From assembly GCA_944324395.1 (NCBI GenBank), contig CALUWC010000002.1:1-64000 (forward strand): a stretch of DNA of 64,000 nt, written 5' to 3'. The DNA is from Candidatus Gastranaerophilales bacterium (GTDB lineage: Bacteria > Cyanobacteriota > Vampirovibrionia > Gastranaerophilales > Gastranaerophilaceae). The notes beneath the pieces were generated by a model, which was not told where the DNA came from, searched no databases, and saw only the letters and a program-made list of their open reading frames with translations. Of this stretch, positions 7,690-32,351 are shown piece after piece (the stretch's first letter is position 1; every line of letters begins with the position of its first letter). The position numbers were made by a program, and so were the translations under genes.

Positions 7690-10083
7690 TCATTTTGATA
7701 TAAATTCATCTCTCAATTCATAATTTTTATCATGCGAATTGTATGAATAAATTTTATACAGATTTCCGTCTGTAGAAATCTTTATTGAATTTAATAAATC
7801 GGTTCTCAAAATCTCTGTATTTCTTAATATATCAAGAGTTCCTTTATTAGGATGTCCAAAATAATTTATACCGGTCGAAATTAAAGAAACCTTATTGCCA
7901 AGATATTCAAGCATTGAAGAATCCACAACCCCGGCTCCGCCATGATGACCAACTTTTAAGACCTCTACATTATGCGGAATATCATGTTTTATAAGATTAA
8001 AGGTTTCAACTCCGGCATCGCCCATAAAAAGCATGTCAAAGTTTTTATAAGACAAAAGCGTTATTATTGAATTTTCATTATCAGAATCTTTTCTCTCAAT
8101 ATTTGCTCTGTACAAAGTTACAGCAAGATTATCTTCTTTGTATACCTCTTTTTTAGCGGTAACTATTTTAACATTTTGATTAAGAGAGGAAACTGTTTCA
8201 AAAATTTTCTTTGAAGTTTGTGAATTTGCTTTATCAGAATTTAAATATAAAGTTTTTACTTTCACACCGGAAATTATATCAGCTGCACCGCCTGAGTGAT
8301 CATTATCAAAATGAGTAACGATTACTCCTTCCAGATTTTTAATACCATGGTCTTTTAAATATTTTAAAATGATAACTTTAGCCTGAGAACTTGAACTGCC
8401 GTATGAGGCTTTGCCTGTATCTATTATAAAATACTTATTTTCAGGAGTTTTAATCAGAAAAGAGTCAGCATTTTGAACATCAAATGCTATAATTTCCAAA
8501 TCTTTCGAAACAGGTTTTATTGATGTAAAAATCAGAATGGTTGAAATCAATATAAAAGCTGTCAGAGCCTTTTTATATTTATCAAACTTTATCAAATACG
8601 TAACACCCGTAAGCATCAGATAATATAGAATCAATTGAATAACATCCGGGTGCGGAGTCTGTACAATACAATATTTTAACCCCCCGAAAAAATTTGAAAT
8701 TAAAACCAGTAAATCAAGTAAATATCTCAAAAAGAAATCAAATATACAGCAAACAAATTCCGAAATTTGCGGAATTACTGCAAGTGTAGAACTTACAAAA
8801 CCGCCAAAGCTTATTACACTCAATAAACTGACGGTGGAAATGTTAGCAAAAACAGAATATACACTGAATGTATTAAAGTAAAACATCTGAACAGGAGCAA
8901 CCCATAATTGTGCAACTACAGGTATCAAAATCAAGGCTTTAAGCCAGTCCGGAACATTGGACAATTTTTGAGAAATTATATTTGCAGTCGTCAACAATCC
9001 GAAAGTCACAAGAAAGGACAATTGGAAACTAACATCATTTATATAAGCAGGGTTATAAATAAGCATTAAAACCGCAACAAATGATAACAACGAAACACTA
9101 TGAGCATCCCTATCTATCAATTTTCCGGCCATAACAAACAAAAGCATCAATGCAGCTCTTATTACGGACGGTCCTAATCCTGTCATCAAAGTGTACAAAA
9201 TAACAACAAGCATTCCTGAAATTACACGAGGCTTATACGGAACCTTAAAATACTGGAGAATATAAAACCAGAATGTAAATATAAAAGCTACATTCATACC
9301 GGACGCAGCTAATATATGCAATAAACCGGAATTTATAAATGAGTTTTTGATATATTCAGGAGGAGAAACAGCATCATCGCCAAACACAATTCCGCCAAGT
9401 ATTTCAAGATTAGGACTCTTTAAAAATTTTGCATGCTCCTTTAGAATTCTGATTCTTGTATTGTTTAAAGCCTGAAGAAATTTCCATTTTATTCCTGCAT
9501 CATTTTGCAAAATCCGAACACCATCTCCGGAAGCATATAATACGGTAAATACATTAAAATTTCTCAAATATGCACTATAATCAAATTGAGAAGGATTTGC
9601 AGACGAAAAAGGCTTTCTTAATTTTCCTTTAACAGAAATATTTTCTCCAATATTGAACTCTTGAGATGAATCCTCCCGCAAAAGAGAAACAAGAAGTTTT
9701 GCTTTAATATTTTGACCTCCCGCCTGATTAGTTTCCACAAAAAATCTAACCTTATTTTCGTCCTGATAAGATGGAATACTCACTATTCTTCCAGTTATTG
9801 AAATATTAGCCGGAGCAATCTGCAGCAACTCATCATAATTTTTTATTTTAAAAAATGTTAAGAAAAATCCGGAATAAAAAATAAATGTAAATATTAAAAT
9901 TTTACGAATATCAAAAATTCGAAAAACAAGAAATAATATCATCAATATCGTAAATATTACAGCTGATAACAGTGCAGAACCGCCAAAACAGGCTAATATC
10001 CCGAACATAAAAATTAAAGATGCAAAAAACATCAGTAAATTTTTATTCTGAAAAATATCCCTGAAGTGATTTATATCTATCAT
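7690..10083 (-). CDS. comEC: DNA-uptake channel protein ComEC/Rec2
   Basis: About 797 residues. It forms the inner-membrane channel that takes up single-stranded DNA during natural transformation. An N-terminal pair of membrane helices precedes a soluble DUF4131/OB-like part. Next comes the multi-helix Competence domain (LHILAASGMNVAFIF signature). A C-terminal metallo-beta-lactamase domain follows, with VTHFDNDHSGGAADI and a later KVGHHGG. The gene is full-length and intact. I prefer the ATG giving MIDINHF; a TTG ten codons upstream lacks a Shine-Dalgarno. It is divergent from pilT, fitting the known link between type IV pili and DNA uptake. Confidence 0.92.
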   Translation of the reverse strand: MIDINHFRDIFQNKNLLMFFASLIFMFGILACFGGSALLSAVIFTILMILFLVFRIFDIRKILIFTFIFYSGFFLTFFKIKNYDELLQIAPANISITGRIVSIPSYQDENKVRFFVETNQAGGQNIKAKLLVSLLREDSSQEFNIGENISVKGKLRKPFSSANPSQFDYSAYLRNFNVFTVLYASGDGVRILQNDAGIKWKFLQALNNTRIRILKEHAKFLKSPNLEILGGIVFGDDAVSPPEYIKNSFINSGLLHILAASGMNVAFIFTFWFYILQYFKVPYKPRVISGMLVVILYTLMTGLGPSVIRAALMLLFVMAGKLIDRDAHSVSLLSFVAVLMLIYNPAYINDVSFQLSFLVTFGLLTTANIISQKLSNVPDWLKALILIPVVAQLWVAPVQMFYFNTFSVYSVFANISTVSLLSVISFGGFVSSTLAVIPQISEFVCCIFDFFLRYLLDLLVLISNFFGGLKYCIVQTPHPDVIQLILYYLMLTGVTYLIKFDKYKKALTAFILISTILIFTSIKPVSKDLEIIAFDVQNADSFLIKTPENKYFIIDTGKASYGSSSSQAKVIILKYLKDHGIKNLEGVIVTHFDNDHSGGAADIISGVKVKTLYLNSDKANSQTSKKIFETVSSLNQNVKIVTAKKEVYKEDNLAVTLYRANIERKDSDNENSIITLLSYKNFDMLFMGDAGVETFNLIKHDIPHNVEVLKVGHHGGAGVVDSSMLEYLGNKVSLISTGINYFGHPNKGTLDILRNTEILRTDLLNSIKISTDGNLYKIYSYNSHDKNYELRDEFISK

Positions 10084-10118
10084 AATTCCAACACATGAAT
10101 GATAACATATCAATATGG

Positions 10119-10147
10119 TTGTGCAAAACTAAAAAAAATGATATACT
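10119..10147 (+). promoter_or_regulatory. Promoter of pilT-recO
   Basis: TTGTGC and TATACT separated by 17 bases, followed about 20 bases later by the pilT start with a GAGGAAGA ribosome site. Confidence 0.7.
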
Positions 10148-10168
10148 ACATGGTGAGGAAGAAGATTA

Positions 10169-11269
10169 ATGAGCAGTAATGATTTCTATATTGAGGATTT
10201 TTTAAGACAAGCAGTATCTGTAGGTGCTTCTGATGCTCACATTTGCGAAGGAGAAAGACCGGCAATCAGAGTTTCCGGACAGATTATGAGAATTAACCTG
10301 CCGCCTTTAACAAGTGAAGATATAGAGTTTGTCATCAGAACCGTTGCTCCTCCTCACTTAAAAGACAGAATTACAAGATTTTTTGATATTGACTTTTCAT
10401 ACGAAATTCCGGGTTGTTCACGTTTCCGTATAAATATGAGCCGTCAGCTCGGAAAAACCGCAATGGTTATTCGTGCTATTCCATATTATATTAAAACATT
10501 TAAAGAATTATTCTTACCTACAACGCTGGAAGAATTTGCAAGCTTTAACAACGGACTGGTGCTGGTTACAGGGCCTACAGGATCCGGTAAATCAACAACA
10601 ATTGCTTCTTTGATTGACTATATAAATGCTACAACTTCAAAACATATTGTTACAATTGAAGACCCTGTCGAATTTATATTTTCAAACAAAAAATCTATTG
10701 TATCTCAAAGACAATTGTTAATTGATACTCCGTCATTCTCAGATGGTGTAAAATACGCGTTAAGACAAGACCCCGATGTTATATTCATCGGTGAAATTCG
10801 TGACAGGGAAACTGTTGAGTCTGCACTGAAGGCTGCAGAAACAGGTCACCTTGTAGTATCTACAATTCACACAAATGATTCTGTTCAAACTGTTGCCAGA
10901 ATTATCAACCTGTTTGATCCGAATGAAAGACCGTTTGTCAGAAGCCAGATAGCTAACACTCTGAGAGGTACTATATCTCAAAAACTAGTACCGACAGCAG
11001 AAGGAGGCACTCGAGTTCCCGCAACTGAAATTCTTGTCGTAACCCCAACTGTTAAAGACTTTATTCAAAAAGATGAACTTGAACAAATTTATGAACTTGT
11101 TAAGAAGGGTTCATTTAATAATATGACTACAATGAATATGTCACTTTATAAACTGTTTAATGAAGGTAAAATAACTCAGGAAACAGCTCTGACATATTCT
11201 GATAACAAATCTGAACTTGAACAAATGATGAGAGGTATTTATCACGGCACAAGTGCCAATTTAGGATAA
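10169..11269 (+). CDS. pilT: Type IV pilus retraction ATPase PilT
   Basis: A 366-residue hexameric AAA-like motor that depolymerises pili and drives twitching and DNA uptake; cytoplasmic, at the pilus base. Residues 1-105 form the N-terminal PAS-like domain. The ATPase domain has Walker A GPTGSGKS (135-142), an Asp box around IEDPVEF, Walker B VIFIGEIRD and the His box GHLVVSTIHT. The retraction-type AIRVSGQIMRI start separates it from PilB. The stop codon overlaps the recO start by one base (TAATG). Its presence supports active pili in this organism, relevant to the pilin-like fibre genes at 24.8-32.2 kb. Confidence 0.95.
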   Translation: MSSNDFYIEDFLRQAVSVGASDAHICEGERPAIRVSGQIMRINLPPLTSEDIEFVIRTVAPPHLKDRITRFFDIDFSYEIPGCSRFRINMSRQLGKTAMVIRAIPYYIKTFKELFLPTTLEEFASFNNGLVLVTGPTGSGKSTTIASLIDYINATTSKHIVTIEDPVEFIFSNKKSIVSQRQLLIDTPSFSDGVKYALRQDPDVIFIGEIRDRETVESALKAAETGHLVVSTIHTNDSVQTVARIINLFDPNERPFVRSQIANTLRGTISQKLVPTAEGGTRVPATEILVVTPTVKDFIQKDELEQIYELVKKGSFNNMTTMNMSLYKLFNEGKITQETALTYSDNKSELEQMMRGIYHGTSANLG

Positions 11270-12042
11270 TGCAGAACAGTTTTATTACAGATGCAATTAA
11301 TCTAAAGTCCTATAACTTGAGCGAATCAGATAAAATTATCGTAATGTACTCAAAAGAAAAAGGACTTATAAGGGGAGTAGCTAAAGGGGTCAAAAAACCT
11401 AAAAGTAAATTAGGTGCTCGTATGGATTTGCTTGTCGCAAATACTCTTATGCTCCATAAGGGGAGAAACCTTGACACTATCTGTCAGGCTGAAGTTGTTA
11501 ATTCTTTTTACAAAACAAGACAAGATATTGATAAAATATGTTATTCAATGTATGTAACAGAGGTTGTTCACAATTTCGGGGTAGAAGAAGATCCATGCTC
11601 CGAAACGATATACAATCTTTTATATAAAACATTAAATACAATTTCATCAGCCGAATCTAAAGTCGAAATTCTGCTTGCAGTCATAAAATTCCAATTAAAA
11701 ATGATGATTGAATCGGGTTTTTCTCTGGAGCTTGAAAAATGCCTTTGCTGCCACAAAACTGTACAAGATGAAACGATGTACTTTGTACCTGCTATGGGCG
11801 GAATAATTTGCAGCAACTGTGCATCTCATATCAATTATCATAAAAAACAGTTACCTTACAAATTAAGAGATTTCTTTAGACAAATGTCCATAAATGACTT
11901 TGATGAAAAAGGAGATTTTGAAACTAAGGCAAATGAAAAAGTTTGTATGGTAACATTTGAAGTTCTAAAAGAGTATATAACAATGAAGTCGCCTAAAAAA
12001 TTCAAGTCAACAAATATTCTACAAGAAATGCCAACAGCATAA
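11269..12042 (+). CDS. recO: DNA repair protein RecO
   Basis: A 257-residue recombination mediator that helps load RecA onto gaps with RecF/RecR. The N-terminal OB fold (DAINLKSYNLSESDKIIVMYS, then GVAKGVKKPKSKLG) is typical. A zinc site follows in the C-terminal half (CLCCHKT and CSNC). It overlaps pilT by one base and is surely cotranslated with it. The pairing of a repair gene with pilT is probably only an operon convenience, though both matter for transformation. Confidence 0.93.
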   Translation: MQNSFITDAINLKSYNLSESDKIIVMYSKEKGLIRGVAKGVKKPKSKLGARMDLLVANTLMLHKGRNLDTICQAEVVNSFYKTRQDIDKICYSMYVTEVVHNFGVEEDPCSETIYNLLYKTLNTISSAESKVEILLAVIKFQLKMMIESGFSLELEKCLCCHKTVQDETMYFVPAMGGIICSNCASHINYHKKQLPYKLRDFFRQMSINDFDEKGDFETKANEKVCMVTFEVLKEYITMKSPKKFKSTNILQEMPTA

Positions 12043-12113
12043 TATTTCAGCCAACAAGGTTATATTATTTGCTGGACAAAATTTATATAATCATTTTAAA
12101 AAGGACGGTAACA

Positions 12114-14699
12114 ATGAAAAAATTTATATTAATTGCAGCAATAATGATTTGCGGAAATACAGTCTGGGCAGCAAGTGCTCAAATGTTTAAACTTGACAAC
12201 GGACAAACAGTAATCATCCAAGAAGTACGCAACAACCCGATAGTGACTATTGATACCTGGATAAAAACGGGTTCTATCGATGAAGATGACTCTAATAACG
12301 GAGTTGCACACTTTTTGGAGCATTTATTTTTCAAAGGTACAACAAATCATGAACCCGGAGAGTTTGACAGAATATTAGAAACCAAAGGAGCCATAACAAA
12401 TGCTGCGACCAGTAAAGATTTTACCCACTACTATGTAACTATACCGTCTAAAGATTTTGATTTAGCTATGGAATTGCATGGAGATATGATGATGCATCCG
12501 CTTATCCCAAGAAACGAACTCGAAAAAGAACGCAAAGTAGTACTTGAGGAAATAAATAAAGATCTGAATGATCCAAGCAGAATTCTTCAGGAAAACTTAA
12601 ATGAAATGATGTACACTGTCCATCCTTATAAAAGAAAAGTCATAGGCAAAAGCGAAGTAATTGAAACTATAACAAGAGATCAAATACTAAATTTCTATGA
12701 TGCACATTATTCACCTTCAAATATGGTAACGGTAATTATCGGTGATGTTGATACAACACATGCACTTGATAAAGTTAAAGAAGTATTTAATGCACCATAT
12801 AAAAAACAAGTTAAAAATACATATCCCAAAGAAGAACCTCTGACAACGCAGCAAAAAAAAGTTGACTATATAAAAACAGAATCAGGATACATGGTAATAG
12901 GATTCAGAGGAACTCCGATAGATAAAAAAGATTCTTATGCTTTAGATATCCTTGCAACAATACTTGGCGACGGAAGATCTTCAATCTTATATCAGGTATT
13001 GAAAGATCAAAAAAGACTTGCTTTTTCGGTTGATGCAGGAAATGCAACTTATAGAGATGACGGAATGTTCTATATTTCAGCCAACTTTGAACCTGACAGA
13101 TGCAAACAAATCCAAGATACTATCTTTGAAGAAATCAAAAAAATTCAAAACAAAGGAATAACAGATGAACAATTAAAACTTGCTAAAAATATTATAGAAA
13201 GAGATACTTACTATTCCAGAGAATCTATCACAAATATAGCTACTGAAATCGGTTATACAACAGCATTGACCAATGACCTGAAATTTTACGACACATATAT
13301 TGATAACATTAAAAAAGTAACAAAAAGCGATGTAAAACATGTTGCAAATAAATATTTAGGAATAAATAAAAGTGCAGTGTCCATAATTTTACCGGAAACA
13401 GCCAAAGATATACCTGTAGCAAATATAACAAAAACTCCAGGAACAGCAGAAATGATAAGCAAAAACGCTGAAACCGAAAAATACAAACTTTCAAACGGTG
13501 CGGCTCTTTTATATACTCCAAACACCTCAAATGACATAATTGCAATAAGTATATATGCAAAGGGCGGACAATTGCTTGATAAAGTTCCGGGAACAGCAAA
13601 TCTAACAGCCTCTGCAATCCTGAAAGGTACCAAAAATTACACTCCGCTTGAACTTTCTCAAACTCTGGAAGATAACGGGATAAAAATAATGCCGGGATTA
13701 AGTGCTGATGCTTTTTCAATATCAGTATTAACAACAAAAGATCAATATGAAAAAACTCTTGAACTATTAAATGAAATAGTAAACAATGCTACTTTTGATG
13801 ATTTTGAATTGGATAAGATTAAATCAGACAAATTAAATGCAATAAAAAGTGCTAAAGATATCCCGCTTCAACAAGCACTTGAGGAATACAGAGATTTATT
13901 ATACAAAGATACTCCTTATTCAATTTCATCAAAAGTTTTAGAAAAAAATGTTCCAAATATTACAAGAACTGATATTCTGGAATACTACAGCAAAATTTTT
14001 ACTCCGGAAAATCTTGTAATTTCAATCAACGGAAATATTGATAAAGAAAAAACTATACAAGAACTAAACAAAATATTTTCTAAAAAAGGAAACGGTGAAA
14101 GCTTTGACTATACAAAGCATAACAATCAAATAACAAGAATTACCTCACCAAGAACCAATATCAAAAATATGCCGACAACTGAAACAGCCTGGATAATGTT
14201 AGGCTGGCAGACAGACGGAGTACTAAATGAAAAAGATTATGCAACTCTGCAGGTTATAGATGCAATACTTGGAACAGGCATGAGTTCCAGATTATTCAAA
14301 GATTTGAGAGAGCAGGAAGGACTTGCTTACCAGCTTGGAACAAGCTTTTCCCCGAATATATTGAGAGGAAGTTTTATGCTGTATATCGGAACAAATCCTG
14401 CAACATTAGACAAAGCTAAAAAGGGTTTATTTGATGAAATTACACGATTAAAAACCGAATACGTAGGCGATAAAGAACTAAAAGATGCAAAAGAAAAACT
14501 CCTCGGCAACTATGTAATAGGACTTGAAACCAATCTTGATAAAGCCTCAAACACAGGCTGGTACGAAGCATCTACAAGAGGATATGAATTCAAAGACAAA
14601 TATGAAGCTTTGATAAACGGAGTAACAGATTCAGATATAATAGAAGCCGCAAACAGATACTTTACAGAAAATTATATAATGTCAATAGTGACAAAATAA
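12114..14699 (+). CDS. M16-family zinc metallopeptidase (exported)
   Basis: An 861-residue exported processing peptidase of the insulinase/pitrilysin family. I start at the ATG with Shine-Dalgarno AAGGACGG, which gives a clean signal peptide (MKKFILIAAIMICGNTVWA). The first M16 half holds the inverted zinc motif HFLEH (66-70) and a downstream Glu in the ERKVVLEEINKD region. The second half keeps the fold (AWIMLGWQTDGV, LREQEGLAYQLGTSF) but lacks HxxEH, as usual for two-domain, single-chain members. Probable role: degradation or processing of peptides outside the inner membrane. Promoters are not obvious. Confidence 0.9.
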   Translation: MKKFILIAAIMICGNTVWAASAQMFKLDNGQTVIIQEVRNNPIVTIDTWIKTGSIDEDDSNNGVAHFLEHLFFKGTTNHEPGEFDRILETKGAITNAATSKDFTHYYVTIPSKDFDLAMELHGDMMMHPLIPRNELEKERKVVLEEINKDLNDPSRILQENLNEMMYTVHPYKRKVIGKSEVIETITRDQILNFYDAHYSPSNMVTVIIGDVDTTHALDKVKEVFNAPYKKQVKNTYPKEEPLTTQQKKVDYIKTESGYMVIGFRGTPIDKKDSYALDILATILGDGRSSILYQVLKDQKRLAFSVDAGNATYRDDGMFYISANFEPDRCKQIQDTIFEEIKKIQNKGITDEQLKLAKNIIERDTYYSRESITNIATEIGYTTALTNDLKFYDTYIDNIKKVTKSDVKHVANKYLGINKSAVSIILPETAKDIPVANITKTPGTAEMISKNAETEKYKLSNGAALLYTPNTSNDIIAISIYAKGGQLLDKVPGTANLTASAILKGTKNYTPLELSQTLEDNGIKIMPGLSADAFSISVLTTKDQYEKTLELLNEIVNNATFDDFELDKIKSDKLNAIKSAKDIPLQQALEEYRDLLYKDTPYSISSKVLEKNVPNITRTDILEYYSKIFTPENLVISINGNIDKEKTIQELNKIFSKKGNGESFDYTKHNNQITRITSPRTNIKNMPTTETAWIMLGWQTDGVLNEKDYATLQVIDAILGTGMSSRLFKDLREQEGLAYQLGTSFSPNILRGSFMLYIGTNPATLDKAKKGLFDEITRLKTEYVGDKELKDAKEKLLGNYVIGLETNLDKASNTGWYEASTRGYEFKDKYEALINGVTDSDIIEAANRYFTENYIMSIVTK

Positions 14700-24789: not shown

Positions 24790-24827
24790 AGTATACAAGA
24801 TAGATTGTTTTTAAATGGAGTTTGAGA

Positions 24828-26540
24828 ATGAGATTATACCTATTTAAACGAGCCTATACTCTTGCAGAGATAATGCTTGTACTTCTGATTTTATCAATTA
24901 TATTTGCTGCATTTGCACCAATATTTACAAAAAGAAAAATATCTTCATATACAAGCAAATATAATGTCTGGGAATACGCTGACAGAGTATCTTTAGATGC
25001 ATACTATGAATCAGGTGATCCTTCTTTTACCGGCGAATTGTTCTTTGGACTTACACCAAAGGGTAAAAGTGATATTACAACAACATTCGCACCTGTTTCA
25101 AAAGTAGTTATCAGGTCAGGAGAAGTTACTTCACAAGCTGCAAAACAACGCCAGATCCAATTTAGATACGGCAGAACTTCTACTACAGATATAGGTGACT
25201 TTGCAGGTTCCTGGCTTATGGACGGAGATAACGCTTTATTAGGCGGTCAATATCGAAATTTAGCAACATCACAGGATGATGGGGCAAGATATAATGTCGG
25301 TATCGGATATCTGGCAATGAGCAAGCTGCAAAACGGACAAAGTAACACTGCTGTCGGGTATAATGCTCTCGGAAACGCTACAACAGCATCAAAAAACGTA
25401 GCTATCGGTTATAATGCCGGTGCAACACTCACAACAAATGAATCTAATACATTTGCAGGAGCCGGTGCCGGATACAGAAAAACAGGTAAAGGCAATACAA
25501 TTATAGGTTATAATGCCGGTGCAAACAGTGCTAACGGTTCAAATAGCTTATATATTGGTTATTATGCCGGATACAATGCCGGCGGAAATTACAATACGGC
25601 AATTGGGTATAATACTATGCAAAAGGTATCCGGGCGTTATAATATCGCACTTGGTGCCAATGCTTTACAAAATGTAACTTCAGGAAATTATAACGTTGCA
25701 ATAGGTGCCAATGCTTGCTCTGAGGTAACTTCAGGTTCTTACAAAACTTGTATTGGTGCTAACTCCGGACCACATAGCGGAACTTCTGCAGAAAACTATT
25801 TAAGTGGCAGAACTAATTCGAACCAGGTTACATATATCGGTGGAAAACCATACAATTATGGCGGTGATGCAGTTTTAGAAATTCATAATGTTGAAACCCG
25901 AGAAAGTGGAATCATAAAGCACGCAAAAGCATCTACAGATTCTAGTGTTACAACAGTAGTTAATGGTAATTTAATAGTTCGCGGCAGACCATTTTTCACT
26001 GTTGGAAACACTCTTTACCATTTCCATGATCAGAATCCGCTAACAAAACAAGCAGGAAGCCGATTATACGGCTCCGGGAATGCTCTGAATAGTAAATATT
26101 ATAAAGCATGTATTTCCAGCCAAAAAGGTTATAGTTTTGGTTCTTGTGTTTCTTTATCTTCCTCTGACAGAAGATTAAAAAATATCACATCAAGAAATAA
26201 TGACGGTATAGATGAAATTCTTAAATTAAAAGTATATAATTATACATTCAAAGATGACCCGGATAAAAAACCGCATGTTGGTGTAATTGCTCAGGATTTG
26301 CAAAAAGTATTTCCTAATGCAGTTGTCCAAGGCTCTGACGGATATTTAAGAATTCGCTGGGACGATATGTTCTATGCTGCAATCAATGCAATAAAAGAGC
26401 TTGATAAAAAAATTGTTGCTATCGCAAAACGAATAACAGATGTTGAAGCTAAAATTGCAGATCTTGAAAAAGAAAATGCAACATTAAAATCTCAAGTTGA
26501 CAGTATTGCAATGAGAATAAATAAATTGAAAGCACAATAA
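24828..26540 (+). CDS. Prepilin-anchored repeat fibre with S74 self-cleaving chaperone (paralogue 1)
   Basis: A 570-residue three-part protein. (1) Residues 1-9 form a short basic leader, cut by prepilin peptidase before YTLAE (Glu at mature position 5), followed by the pilin-type helix to about residue 32. (2) About 140-320 is a repeat array of the form xNxAIGYNAxxxVTSGxYN, like YadA-head or tail-fibre solenoids, followed by the conserved linker VVNGNLIVRG. (3) A peptidase S74 domain starts at Ser446 (SDRRLKN, predicted self-cleavage before Ser with the Lys as partner) and ends in a coiled coil. The -1 residue is Ala, not the usual Gly. Start chosen by GGAG spacing. Surface fibre is the likely role; not a characterised protein to my knowledge. 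Confidence 0.85.
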   Translation: MRLYLFKRAYTLAEIMLVLLILSIIFAAFAPIFTKRKISSYTSKYNVWEYADRVSLDAYYESGDPSFTGELFFGLTPKGKSDITTTFAPVSKVVIRSGEVTSQAAKQRQIQFRYGRTSTTDIGDFAGSWLMDGDNALLGGQYRNLATSQDDGARYNVGIGYLAMSKLQNGQSNTAVGYNALGNATTASKNVAIGYNAGATLTTNESNTFAGAGAGYRKTGKGNTIIGYNAGANSANGSNSLYIGYYAGYNAGGNYNTAIGYNTMQKVSGRYNIALGANALQNVTSGNYNVAIGANACSEVTSGSYKTCIGANSGPHSGTSAENYLSGRTNSNQVTYIGGKPYNYGGDAVLEIHNVETRESGIIKHAKASTDSSVTTVVNGNLIVRGRPFFTVGNTLYHFHDQNPLTKQAGSRLYGSGNALNSKYYKACISSQKGYSFGSCVSLSSSDRRLKNITSRNNDGIDEILKLKVYNYTFKDDPDKKPHVGVIAQDLQKVFPNAVVQGSDGYLRIRWDDMFYAAINAIKELDKKIVAIAKRITDVEAKIADLEKENATLKSQVDSIAMRINKLKAQ

Positions 26541-26561
26541 TTAAAATAACAAATATAAATA

Positions 26562-26597
26562 AAAAGATGCATTACTAAATAATGCATCTTTTTTATT
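26562..26597 (+). terminator. Terminator of fibre gene 1
   Basis: Twelve-bp stem AAAAGATGCATT/AATGCATCTTTT with a seven-base loop and T run. Confidence 0.9.
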
Positions 26598-26632
26598 AAC
26601 TTATATTATCAAAAATAAATATAAAATTTGCT

Positions 26633-26661
26633 TTACAAAATTATTTGCACTAAACTATATA
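26633..26661 (+). promoter_or_regulatory. metK promoter and leader
   Basis: TTTACA, 17 bases, TATATA. The leader that follows (to 26729) contains a CCGG...CCGG pair around an A-rich loop, which could form a small hairpin. It does not match a SAM riboswitch class that I can recognise. Confidence 0.5.
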
Positions 26662-26729
26662 GGAAAATGGAGTGCCGGGTTGGAATTAAAAAACTTACCG
26701 GAGTAGAAATAAATTAAGGAGAAAAAGAA

Positions 26730-28004
26730 ATGACATCAAAAAAATTTTTGTTTACCTCTGAATCAGTAACAGAAGGACATCCGGACAAAGTATGTGATCA
26801 AATATCAGATGCTATTCTGGACGAATTCTTAACAAAAGATCCGCATTCAAGAGTTGCTGCAGAAACAACAGTTACAACAGGTATGGCTCTGGTTTGCGGA
26901 GAAATTACCGCTGATTGTTATGTCGATATCCCGCAGGTTGTAAGATCAACAATCCAAAATATCGGCTATATCGGTACAAGTTCAGGCGGATTTGATGCAA
27001 ATACCTGTGCTGTATTAACAAGTATTGATGAACAATCAACAGATATCGGAAACGGTGTAAATAAAGCTCTTGAAGCAAGACAAAATAATGCTGATACATC
27101 CTCTGTAGAAACTGAAGATATCGGAGCAGGCGATCAGGGTATTATGTTCGGTTTTGCCTGCAATGAAACCCCTGAATTAATGCCGCTGCCTATAAGTCTG
27201 GCTCACAAACTTTCGCACAGACTTGCTCAGGTTAGAAAAGAAGGTATTCTAAATTACTTAAGACCGGACGGAAAATCTCAGGTCACAGTTGAATATGTTG
27301 ATGGAAAACCTTCAAGAATACATACAGTTTTACTGTCTACACAGCATAATCCGACTATAAACGGTATCTCAGATAATGAAAAAGTCCAAGAAATTATACA
27401 AAAAGACCTGAAAAAATTCGTAATAGATTATGTATTTGAAAATGAAGCAATAAAACTTGATGCAGATACAATAATTTTAATTAACCCGTCAGGCAGATTT
27501 GTTATTGGCGGACCTCAAGGTGATTCAGGTTTAACCGGAAGGAAAATTATCGTCGATACTTATGGCGGATATTCAAGACATGGCGGAGGAGCTTTTTCAG
27601 GAAAAGACCCGACAAAAGTTGACAGATCTGCAGCTTATGCCGCAAGATACGTTGCTAAAAATATTGTTGCAGCAGGTCTTGCTGATAAGTGTGAAATAGA
27701 ATTATCTTATGCAATCGGTGTTGCTGAACCATTATCAATTATGGTTGATACCTTCGGCACAGGTAAAATTTCAGATGATGAAATATCTGAATTAGTCTAC
27801 AAAAATTTCGACCTGAGACCGGCTGCTATTATCAATAAATTTGATTTAAGAAATCTGCCTGCTAAAAACGGAGGTAAATTCTATCAATTACTGGCAGCAT
27901 ACGGACATATGGGCCGTACTGATATTGACGTTCCATGGGAACATATTGATAAAGCTGAAACATTGAAAAATCAAGCTTGTTCTACAGGCTGTAGCTGCAT
28001 ATAA
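26730..28004 (+). CDS. metK: S-adenosylmethionine synthetase
   Basis: A 424-residue tetrameric enzyme making SAM from methionine and ATP. The signatures are [16 protein letters not shown], the [10 protein letters not shown] hexapeptide region, and the P-loop-like [17 protein letters not shown]. The length is slightly above the usual ~390-400 because of a short C-terminal Cys-rich tail (ACSTGCSCI). AAGGAG provides a good ribosome site. It sits between fibre gene 1 and the two minus-strand fibre genes and is insulated by terminators on both sides, so a functional link is not implied. Confidence 0.96.
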
Positions 28005-28032
28005 ATTTTCATATAAAAAGAAAATATATGAA

Positions 28033-28069
28033 ACAAAAAAGGTATCTCTTATTGAGATACCTTTTTTAT
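28033..28069. terminator. Bidirectional terminator, metK / fibre gene 2
   Basis: Long stem AAAAAAGGTATCTC/GAGATACCTTTTTT with a short loop between the convergent genes; T runs on both strands. Confidence 0.92.
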
Positions 28070-28089
28070 TATGCATTATTCAAAACTAA

Positions 28090-30174
28090 TTATTTTCTTT
28101 TAGCCTCGATTTGCTCTAATTCACCGGCTAATTTGTCTAATCTTGCATTTAACTCGGCATTATCATTTTTCAATGCAGATAATCTCTGTCTATCATTAGC
28201 AATTTTAGAAGCTAATTTTTCAATTTTAGTATTCAATTCTTTAATAGAATTGATAGCCGCATAGAACATTTCGTCCCAGCGAATCATATAATAGCCATGA
28301 CTATCTTTAAATACGGCAGACGGGAATACTTTTTTCAAGTCTTGAGCAATAACACCGACACGCGGAGTCTTATTCGGATCATTTTTGAATGTAAAGTTAT
28401 AAACATTCAAATTTCTGATTTCATTCAAACCGGCAGTAAATTTCTCACCGACATTTTTCAATCTGATATCTGATTTCAAATTCGGACAGCAAGAATTCTG
28501 CCCTTTCATATGTGCATAAGGTAAGTCTGTGAATTTTGTAGCTGCATTGCCTCCTTCCGGAGTACGTGCTAAACAAATATTCTTCCCAGTAGAACCATCA
28601 GTATAACAAGACTGATTACTGCTGTTTCCATTTGCATCACAACCTGTAGTCCCATTAGAATTATTTGTTTTAGTAGTCCAGTCATAAGATGTACTTACAG
28701 TGTAAGAACCCAGATTATAATCCGTAGTTGTAGCACCGCCGCCTACAACGGTACAAACACAACCTGGAGCTATATCTTTGAATACATGCGTCTTACAATC
28801 ACCAGCACAATCGTCCCTAGATTGTCCAGTTCTTTGTGTTCCATCATAACCGGAAAAACCTTTTAAGGAGCCTGATTCATTTAATCTGAATAAAACAAGC
28901 CCTTTTGGAATTCTGGAAACTGCCGGAAAATTCTTCTCTCCATTAAAATGTCTCTGCCTGATTAAAGGAAATTCTAAATATGTCTGCCCTCTCACAATCA
29001 AGTTTCCGTTTATTACCACAGAAGAATTACCGGCATTAGTAATAGGACTTGCATTGCTGTTTGTACTATTGATATTATGTACCTCTAAAACAGCTCCTGG
29101 CTTAACATCTCCACCCATATTGCTGGTAGGAATAGAACCTATGAAAACTCTTTCATCACTTCCCGAAAATAACTTATCCGAAGGCTTGAAATTAGTTCCC
29201 TCACCTTCTTTTACACTACCAGAGAACGAACCAATACATGTTTTATTTGAACCATTTGTCAGTTGTAAACATGAATTATCACCAAAAGCTGTATTGTTAC
29301 TGCCTGATGTTAATTTTGACATAGAATTATAACCAATAGCAGTATTATTGTTGCCTGAAGACAAAACTTTCAAAGCATAATTTCCGGCAGCAGTGTTATA
29401 ACTGCCGGTGGATTTTTGTAAAGCAAAGTTACCGACTGCAGTATTACCGGTACCACCGTTACCTGCAGAATAACCAACTATAGTATTCTTATTAGCCGTA
29501 GCATTATTAAGAGAATGGCTACCTATAACAGTGTTATAACTGCCATTTTGCACTTTAGTACCCGAATCAACACCAACAACAGTGTTATAAGAACCGCTTT
29601 TCATAGCTGTTAATGCATTTGTACCCACAGCAGTATTACCGATACCGCTGGTCAAAGCAGATAATGACGCAGAACCAAACGAAGTATTAGCCCTTGCGGT
29701 ATCAGAAATAGATTCATACTTACCGCCTACTAACATATTTTGATTACCTGCAAATAACGCACCAACTATAGAACCGGCTGTAGAATTGTTACTGGTTGCA
29801 TATCTGAATTGCAATTGGTTTTGTAAACTGTTGCCATAAGTACCACCAAGTTTATTCGCTCTTAAAATAAGTTTTGAATATAACGGAGTAGTTTCATTAT
29901 AAGCCGGATTTTTTACATTAGAAGCATTCATAACATCAAGCTTATTGGCAGGAGAAATACCGACAAAAGCCTGAGCTGTATGGGTCTTGCTTGGGACATC
30001 AAAATAAGCATCATTATTGTCATCCCCCGGAACAAATGTCCAAACCTCATCAGCAGAATAATTATCTGCTCTGCGCGTAAATACAGGAGCAAATGCAGCC
30101 ATTAATATTGATAATGTTAATAACAATATCATAACCTCTGCTAAAGTAAACGCTTTTAATTTATTAAATCTCAT
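28090..30174 (-). CDS. Prepilin-anchored repeat fibre with S74 self-cleaving chaperone (paralogue 2)
   Basis: A 694-residue paralogue. Leader of 8 residues, then KA|FTLAEVMILLLTLSILMAA (again Ala at -1 and Glu at +5). About residues 150-330 is the longest and most regular repeat array of the three, with units such as GSGNTAVGxNAL and GSYNTVIGxxSL. The linker VVINGNLIVRG follows. Unlike paralogue 1, a ~140-residue Cys-rich module (with DDCAGDCKTHVF, GCVCTVVGGG, SCCPN) precedes the S74 domain at Ser568 (SDIRLKN). The C-terminus is a coiled coil. ATG chosen six bases after GGAG; the ribosome site overlaps the upstream stop, so it is translated with paralogue 3. Confidence 0.85.
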   Translation of the reverse strand: MRFNKLKAFTLAEVMILLLTLSILMAAFAPVFTRRADNYSADEVWTFVPGDDNNDAYFDVPSKTHTAQAFVGISPANKLDVMNASNVKNPAYNETTPLYSKLILRANKLGGTYGNSLQNQLQFRYATSNNSTAGSIVGALFAGNQNMLVGGKYESISDTARANTSFGSASLSALTSGIGNTAVGTNALTAMKSGSYNTVVGVDSGTKVQNGSYNTVIGSHSLNNATANKNTIVGYSAGNGGTGNTAVGNFALQKSTGSYNTAAGNYALKVLSSGNNNTAIGYNSMSKLTSGSNNTAFGDNSCLQLTNGSNKTCIGSFSGSVKEGEGTNFKPSDKLFSGSDERVFIGSIPTSNMGGDVKPGAVLEVHNINSTNSNASPITNAGNSSVVINGNLIVRGQTYLEFPLIRQRHFNGEKNFPAVSRIPKGLVLFRLNESGSLKGFSGYDGTQRTGQSRDDCAGDCKTHVFKDIAPGCVCTVVGGGATTTDYNLGSYTVSTSYDWTTKTNNSNGTTGCDANGNSSNQSCYTDGSTGKNICLARTPEGGNAATKFTDLPYAHMKGQNSCCPNLKSDIRLKNVGEKFTAGLNEIRNLNVYNFTFKNDPNKTPRVGVIAQDLKKVFPSAVFKDSHGYYMIRWDEMFYAAINSIKELNTKIEKLASKIANDRQRLSALKNDNAELNARLDKLAGELEQIEAKRK

Positions 30175-30185
30175 ATTCGACTCCA

Positions 30186-32204
30186 TTATTTATTATTTTC
30201 AAGACTATCTAACTTTTCATTTAATTTGCTGATTCTATCTTTTATATTGTGCTGGGCATCAGCAACACTATCAGTATCTTGTTCAACAACCTGAAGATCA
30301 GCTGTGACAGCATTAACGTTTGCATTCAGTTCTTTTACGGAATTTATAACAGCAAAGAACATTTCATCCCAGCGAATATTCAAGTAGCCGTCTTTATCCT
30401 CACTAACTGAATCCGGAAATACTTTCTGTAAATCCTGAGCCATAACACCGACTTGAGCAAGAGCATCCTTATCAGCCTTAAATGTATAATTATAAGGAAC
30501 CAACATCATAATTTTTTCTAATGCCGCAACATTTTCAGAACCAATATTTTTCAATCTGGCATCTGATAAGTTTAAATTTGGACAATGAGAACCGCTACTG
30601 GTAGGATATTGGTCTCTATAGTCACCGCAATAGTAACTCCTACCTTTATCATCTGAATCCTGATAAGTCAACCAAGTCATAGAAACAGGATCTTTAGGTC
30701 TGGAATAGTCACTGCCGTTAAAAATCGTACCAACGGTTGCTCCAAAACCTCCGCTCCATAGTGTAAAGTAAATAGCACCAGCAAGAGGAGCTGCCAAACC
30801 ACCAGTAATAACAGTAACAAACCCGGCGACAAGACCTATAATAGCACCTAGAATAGTACCTAAAAACTTACACTTGGGAGAATCTCTAAACGTCTTGCGT
30901 CCAAAAGGACCGCAACGACGTCCGCATCTATCACCACCCGTTTCTCCGCCATTGAATAAGGATTGAGTCAAAGCAGGGTTGCCAGACGAAGCTATAAGCC
31001 TACCATCAGTAGAAGGAATAAATAAGTTACCTCTTACTACAAGATTAGAATTTAATAGAACTGTAGGACGAAGCTGAGGGCTAACTATTCCCGACAACAC
31101 ATCTGAATTAGGAATCATATTATGAACTTCCAGAACAGAACGTCCGCCAAAACCAACAGGAGATCCACCTAAGAAAATATGATCATACTTATCAGTTTCC
31201 AAAGAAGTCAAAGTACCGCCTGCACCTCTATTTTTAGCTGAGCCATAACCTAAACATGTTCTTCTTCCAGGATTTTTCAAATCCCCATTATATTGCATGG
31301 ATAAACAAGCTTCATAACCGGCAACTGAAAGATTTTTTGCCTCATGCTTGCCACCTACAAAAGAATCATAACCGGCAATTGTATTATTAGCAGCGGTTGT
31401 ACCATAATATGTAGAACCCAAAATTGTGTTATTTATTGATTTATCATGATTATCAAAACCGGCAAAGCCTGCAAAATAACCGGCAAAAACATTATCATTA
31501 CCTGATGATGAACTAATACCCAGAACATTTGAACCAATACCAACAGTATTAGAAATAGTAGCGGATTCAGCTCTGCCTGAGTTAGTTCCCATAAAGGTAT
31601 TTCTTCCGGCATGACTCATATATTGTCCGGAATTAGCACCAACTGCAACAATTTCACTGGGACTGCTGCCGCCTTGTTTGCCCATAACAGCATTTGAACC
31701 CAGAGCAAGCACAGATTCCGGGGTTAACGTCCTTGAAAAAGCTCCCATACCTGCTACAGTATTGTTACGTCCGCCTATAAAATAATTCTCATCAGGATTA
31801 GAACGAGTATCGATTTTTCCGCCCATCATTATATTCTTGCTTCCGTCCATAGAGAATACACCTGTAAACAAACCGTTGCCGGATCCGTAACGGAACTGAA
31901 TCATGTGCTGATTAGGACGAGTTTTTATGACCATTTTAGAATAAGGTTTAACATTACTTGCAATATTATCAGGACTAATTCCGACATACGCTGTAGATGT
32001 CTGTCCTGTAGTACCAGGATCATAAAATGCATCTTTCTGGTCGTTATTTGCAACAAAGCTCCAAACAGGTTCGTTTGCAATCGTATCACCCGAACGACGT
32101 TTCGTCATAATAGGAAGCAACGCAGCAAATAATATACCTATAATAACCATTACTATCAATAGTTCTGTAAGCGAAAAAGCTTTCTTAAATGTAATTGATT
32201 TCAT
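30186..32204 (-). CDS. Prepilin-anchored repeat fibre with S74 self-cleaving chaperone (paralogue 3)
   Basis: A 672-residue paralogue, first of a two-gene unit. Leader then KKA|FSLTELLIVMVIIGIL (Ala at -1). The repeats (about 150-340) are less regular, e.g. SEIVAVGANSGQYMSHAG and SNTVGIGSNVLG. The linker is VLLNSNLVVRG. A Cys-rich piece (DRCGRRCGPFG) is followed by a strongly hydrophobic, glycine-zipper-like stretch at about 447-497 (GTILGAIIGLVAGFVTVITG and more). The S74 domain begins at Ser547 (SDARLKN), with a C-terminal coiled coil. Start is ambiguous between two ATGs six bases apart; I chose the inner one because its leader length matches the paralogues. Confidence 0.82.
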   Translation of the reverse strand: MKSITFKKAFSLTELLIVMVIIGILFAALLPIMTKRRSGDTIANEPVWSFVANNDQKDAFYDPGTTGQTSTAYVGISPDNIASNVKPYSKMVIKTRPNQHMIQFRYGSGNGLFTGVFSMDGSKNIMMGGKIDTRSNPDENYFIGGRNNTVAGMGAFSRTLTPESVLALGSNAVMGKQGGSSPSEIVAVGANSGQYMSHAGRNTFMGTNSGRAESATISNTVGIGSNVLGISSSSGNDNVFAGYFAGFAGFDNHDKSINNTILGSTYYGTTAANNTIAGYDSFVGGKHEAKNLSVAGYEACLSMQYNGDLKNPGRRTCLGYGSAKNRGAGGTLTSLETDKYDHIFLGGSPVGFGGRSVLEVHNMIPNSDVLSGIVSPQLRPTVLLNSNLVVRGNLFIPSTDGRLIASSGNPALTQSLFNGGETGGDRCGRRCGPFGRKTFRDSPKCKFLGTILGAIIGLVAGFVTVITGGLAAPLAGAIYFTLWSGGFGATVGTIFNGSDYSRPKDPVSMTWLTYQDSDDKGRSYYCGDYRDQYPTSSGSHCPNLNLSDARLKNIGSENVAALEKIMMLVPYNYTFKADKDALAQVGVMAQDLQKVFPDSVSEDKDGYLNIRWDEMFFAVINSVKELNANVNAVTADLQVVEQDTDSVADAQHNIKDRISKLNEKLDSLENNK

Positions 32205-32351
32205 CCTCATCAAACTCCAAATATAATATTATATTTTCTATTATATCATATAATACCCGACATTTCAATAACCGATACGATTTGTAAACTAAAATAAACA
32301 ACATTTGTGTATTTTCTTCTGAAAATATAAATCTTATTCAATACACAAAAG

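Follow-up and report, generated by a model that had tools for sequence, protein, structure and literature searches.

What does a long hydrophobic stretch do near the end of a large, pilin-like fibre? The fibre, here called fibre C, is encoded in a window of 64,000 nucleotides (the whole stretch of DNA analysed) from a Candidatus Gastranaerophilales genome, along with two paralogues, fibres A and B. It carries an S74 chaperone domain towards its C-terminus. S74 chaperones are familiar chiefly from phage tail fibres and MyRF; in this case they would fold large fibres of pilin type throughout an entire family of uncultured gut bacteria. An initial annotation noted a glycine-rich hydrophobic insert of about 50 residues just before the S74 domain of this third fibre. 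It suggested that the insert could be a membrane-inserting tip, making the fibre a delivery or pore device.

The reading favoured here is that fibre C may be an S74-processed, pilin-like fibre with a membrane-inserting glycine-zipper hairpin as its tip, a grapple that anchors to a membrane. This is held tentatively, at a probability of roughly 0.45. The parts of fibre C are as follows.

30186..32213 (-), fibre C, the third paralogue, 675 aa, an S74 fibre with a prepilin N-terminus (ORF, Pfam, NCBIfam, orthologues)
32094..32186 (-), type IV prepilin signal and helix, residues 10-40, KKA/FSLTE... (PF07963, TIGR02532)
30945..32078 (-), repeat-rich head and stalk, residues about 46-423 (alignment; phrog_1980 tail fibre match)
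30867..30941 (-), Cys/Arg-rich collar, residues 425-449, with C430, C434 and C448 (net positive in orthologues)
30720..30866 (-), hydrophobic stretch, putative glycine zipper, residues 450-498 (shuffles, hydropathy, low-confidence AF2, Gly i,i+4)
30567..30719 (-), tail segment, residues 499-549, with C529 and C544 (conserved KDP...YP...CPNL motifs)
30405..30566 (-), Peptidase_S74 domain, residues 550-603, with a Ser550/Lys555 dyad (profile; comparison with MyRF S587/K592)
30189..30404 (-), C-terminal long helix, residues 604-675 (AF2 helix; weak coiled-coil profile matches)

At the N-terminus, PF07963 scores 22.4 bits against a cut-off of 21.2, and TIGR02532, which describes the prepilin cleavage/methylation motif, scores 23.9 against 16.3. 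The repeat-rich head resembles phage fibre heads, as its phrog_1980 match indicates, and head and stalk include a conserved NSNLVVRGN motif. Peptidase_S74 (PF13884) scores 48.5 bits against a curated cut-off of 22. Its S550 and K555, a serine followed by a lysine five residues on, are invariant in 10 aligned relatives. The long helix that follows is, going by the model, a probable trimeric coiled coil.

In MyRF the dyad is Ser587/Lys592, and the cut falls just before the serine (PMC8326128). If the S74 domain of fibre C acts like that of MyRF-type proteins, the mature fibre would end at residue 549. This predicted autocleavage point is where the tail segment stops, and it would place the hydrophobic stretch some 50 residues ahead of the new C-terminal end. 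The intact dyad and the position of the insert, shortly before the expected cleavage site, make it possible that the insert is exposed only after S74 release.

The hydrophobic stretch itself is real. The coordinates first given for it, 30714-30866, correspond to residues 450-500 of the ORF at 30186-32213 (-). Residues 450-498 (30720-30866) read FLGTILGAIIGLVAGFVTVITGGLAAPLAGAIYFTLWSGGFGATVGTIF, 49 residues in which D, E, K, R, H, N and Q are all absent. When the fibre C body was shuffled 20,000 times, the longest run free of these residues was 46, and none reached 49. Kyte-Doolittle hydropathy over 19 residues peaks at 2.39, compared with 3.06 for fibre C’s own pilin helix and 1.6-2.2 for the helices of the neighbouring MFS transporter, so that the stretch equals real transmembrane helices. 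Fibres A and B have no peak of at least 1.6 outside their own pilin helix, which bears out that the insert is missing from both. The cysteine flanks once described hold on one side: C448 immediately precedes the stretch, whereas the next cysteines downstream, C529 and C544, are 30-45 residues off.

Glycine is the most frequent residue, with 11 within residues 448-498. Across eight diverged members, glycine pairs at i,i+4 are in excess, with 30 observed against 17.9 expected (z 3.6, P 0.0008, a P value that is optimistic because the members are related). Pairs at i,i+8 are also in excess (z 2.35); spacings of 2, 3, 5, 6 and 7 show no excess in the same eight members. A spacing of i,i+4 is what a glycine face on a helix would have. 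Fibre C on its own counts against a zipper, as its GxxxG spacing is not significant (P 0.12). The Pfam glycine zipper 2TM family (PF05433) weakly matches 5 of 15 relatives, at best with E 7.9e-4, and the fibre C module itself matches no family at E <= 1, PF05433 included. Searched against profiles of solved structures, the module gives chance-level matches only, the best being SmhB at E 3.2; PADLOC gives no match.

Polyglycine-II tips occur in phage gp38 adhesins. Such a tip was considered for fibre C and rejected, since its glycines recur at i,i+4 with large aliphatic residues in between.

AF2 models the stretch, with low confidence, as two helices of 23-24 residues. For the 288-residue C-terminal region (15 sequences, mean pLDDT 47) the helices span 445-473 and 479-497. 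For the module alone (mean pLDDT 54, first helix about 66-68) they span 446-469 and 476-498. Both runs point, at that low confidence, to a helical hairpin of membrane-spanning length; their poor quality was counted against the hairpin reading.

Helices rich in glycine and alanine can also pack tightly. The stretch could then be a buried core, in which the hairpins of three chains pack together under a cover of collar and tail, or of a partner protein, and touch no lipid. Fibre tips are trimeric, and the Cys-rich flanks could make a disulphide-bonded shell. Such a core is nevertheless unlikely: with neither charged nor amide side chains in these 49 residues, a six-helix bundle would have no polar surface to turn outwards, and a covering shell is absent from both AF2 runs, low in confidence as these are.

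Relatives of fibre C come from Gastranaerophilales (‘Melainabacteria’) genomes. The module is present in full, and in the same place, in 15 of 46 species (genomes) of the genus, at E about 1e-17 or better with the module profile. Across 383 genomes of the order, other genera yield only weak matches to small glycine-rich ORFs. Of 26 S74 fibres retrieved through an S74 search, none has a comparable stretch. In a quick tree of the head regions (SH-aLRT 95), all 14 module-bearing rows form one clade, and the nearest relatives lack the module. Because the bearers form one clade, a single gain followed by vertical inheritance is suggested. L016, in the sister group, has an apparent piece of the collar, GLFGRKGW, and no stretch. 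The collar may therefore predate the stretch, or L016 lost it.

What these relatives keep is character more than letters. Identity of the stretch between close pairs is 59-86%, with dN/dS of 0.07-0.42. In the 12 relatives listed, runs free of D, E, K and R measure 39-58 residues, with hydropathy peaks of 1.95-2.61. The letters of the stretch diverge while its hydrophobic nature is kept. The exceptions are L044 and L047, with several acidic residues in the stretch, and L036, with one Glu. No relative was found in which it is an ordinary polar globular piece, and no buried soluble core was predicted; either outcome had been named at the outset as evidence against a membrane-inserting tip.

Some observations made during these searches stand on their own. 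In sister genera (L134-L138), ORFs of 109-136 aa have a glycine-rich, two-helix-like segment resembling the fibre tip, for example LSGGLATPIAYLGYSALFGTAGGMIG. These were set aside as look-alikes in composition, given a weak match, no evident export signal and no collar. Among the 26 fetched S74 ORFs, 10 have a prepilin motif and most others are cut before the N-terminus. Of 382 genomes sampled from the class, 156 have S74 domains, with 1-12 copies each and widely differing tips. Two records labelled Muribaculaceae (L052, JAMPCZ010000013.1) and Acinetobacter (L069, CAMZGT010000001.1) carry S74 fibres of Gastranaerophilales type, so these labels are probably binning errors.

Hydropathy, helix length, the i,i+4 glycines and the hydrophobicity kept in relatives together argue well for membrane affinity, and this much of the original proposal stands. 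Insertion as such would be a further step, and so would the choice of membrane. Export through Sec might first lodge a stretch this hydrophobic in the cell’s own inner membrane, which counts against the grapple. The main rival builds on this. In it, the hairpin anchors fibre C a second time, in the cell’s own envelope (inner or outer membrane), having been inserted during export, and fibre C is a multi-pass or tethered base or stop subunit. Hydropathy is at the level of the cell’s transporter helices, hence standard Sec insertion would be expected, and the pilin N-terminus is already in the inner membrane. This anchor is still judged rather unlikely. The 25 residues preceding the stretch have a net charge of +2 to +7 in the orthologues measured. 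A collar so strongly cationic, placed before helix 1, would be periplasmic, contrary to the positive-inside rule, and insertion from the periplasm into the own inner membrane is thereby disfavoured. The stretch also occupies the tip position, where relatives of fibre C bear other, variable tips.

The surroundings of fibre C bear on its origin and on what it might deliver. Its neighbours include the following.

28090..30186 (-), paralogue B, 698 aa, with a Cys-rich tip without hydrophobic stretch, directly after fibre C
26730..28004 (+), S-adenosylmethionine synthetase (metK), inside the conserved cluster
24822..26540 (+), paralogue A, 572 aa, with a short tip without hydrophobic stretch

Genomes with and without the module largely share one gene order, MFS, C, B, metK, A, valS, and this makes the locus chromosomal core and not prophage. 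L036 and L043 differ in having other genes after B, and L044 has no MFS gene beside C. In the former two (about 9000-12700), genes that look ExbD/TolR-like, and others, replace metK and fibre A. A phage or prophage tail fibre origin was rejected on the grounds of these core neighbours, and because phage likeness is confined to S74. Phage records match the S74 part only, at 33-40% identity among the matches listed, and viral contigs give two weak matches, again to S74 only.

The usual arrangement in genomes of the genus is three S74 prepilin fibres in one cluster, as at 24822-32213 in the window. Most complete genomes have three S74 fibres, some have four, and two have none. A mixed trimer of A, B and C is conceivable, because S74 forms trimers. 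The tip of fibre B (28456-28953, (-)) is strongly conserved and Cys-rich (C..C, NCICT, STSYDW, PYAH, SCCP), and also lies just before S74. A common origin of the B and C tips was considered and dropped, as profile comparison aligned only the last 15 residues (CPNL and the start of S74).

Machinery to export such a fibre is encoded in the same 1.9 Mb genome. Contig C3 carries a secretin and a PilB/GspE-type (T2SSE) ATPase no more than 3 kb apart, and the genome has 30 prepilin-like ORFs. Several of these are in tandem (contig C4, 36.8-38.3 kb), and some are large (826 aa, C7).

The original idea of a delivery or pore device fares worst. It would make the tip either a contact-dependent pore or killing device, as in the glycine-zipper bacteriocins, or a hairpin through which a payload is translocated. 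There is precedent, since glycine zippers permeabilise membranes in Cdz proteins (PMC5380434) and in the T6SS effector Tde1 (PMC10240207). But fibre C has no cargo or toxin domain, and its module has no above-chance match to a known pore-former. Comparing genomes with and without the module, the neighbourhood is much alike, hence no immunity gene candidate is apparent beside fibre C. Vertical inheritance in a core locus is also unlike mobile bacteriocins. A pore or killing device is accordingly judged quite improbable, and an anchor is preferred over killing or delivery because neither immunity gene nor toxin domain is seen.

The membrane-anchoring grapple would then work as follows. The prepilin N-terminus would hand fibre C to a type IV pilus or type II secretion-like machine. 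Head and stalk would trimerise into a fibre, with the S74 chaperone at the C-terminus directing the folding and cutting itself off before Ser550. Left at the distal end would be the Cys/Arg-rich collar, the glycine-zipper hairpin (450-498) and the Cys-bearing tail. Copies of the hairpin would pack via their glycine face and insert into the bilayer of a touched surface, most likely that of a contacted cell, with the cationic collar resting on lipid head groups. A bolder version combines all of this: a non-phage fibre joining pilin export, S74 self-processing and a membrane-inserting zipper tip, acquired a single time in a gut lineage, possibly three-chain with its paralogues, that grips or perforates the membranes of other cells. 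Taken as a whole that version is doubtful. If the grapple is true, a tip that seeks membrane, not sugar or protein, would be an unusual mode of attachment. The module would offer a practical way to approach the interactions of Gastranaerophilales with other cells, and it can be tested on its own.

Several known systems share features with fibre C. The glycine zipper 2TM family (PF05433) also has two Gly-rich apolar helices; unlike it, the fibre C hairpin is embedded in a fibre. Cdz bacteriocins have an apolar segment rich in GxxxG, comparable to the stretch discussed here, which is kept on the surface of the producer (PMC5380434). They are peptides of 84-86 aa, secreted by a type I route and accompanied by an immunity gene (PMC5380434). 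No small peptide, type I secretion genes or immunity gene of that kind is seen at the fibre C locus, where the neighbours are MFS, metK, valS and the fibres. The T6SS effector Tde1 has a glycine-zipper segment with a presumed action on the target membrane (PMC10240207), and SseC-type translocators weakly match 2 relatives (E 0.12). Unlike Tde1 and SseC, fibre C lacks an effector domain and has a different secretion route.

Type IV pilin-like minor pilins and tip adhesins resemble fibre C in their class III prepilin signal, which in fibre C scores above curated cut-offs, with machinery in the genome. Fibre C differs from these in being very large (675 aa), of S74 type, and hydrophobic at its tip. 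No paper joining S74 with pilins was found in the literature covered, with subscription journals mostly outside that coverage. S74 fibres (endosialidase NF, phage long tail fibres, the MyRF ICA domain) share with fibre C the Ser and Lys five apart and the helical C-terminus that follows, and the best solved relatives of its S74 domain are MyRF (7dc3) and a phage fibre (6f45). Where phage S74 fibres attach to a virion, the N-terminus of fibre C is a type IV prepilin. Unlike known S74 fibres, it also has a putative hydrophobic hairpin shortly before the predicted cut. Taken singly, the parts are all known; what looks new is their combination, tipped by a conserved hydrophobic segment.
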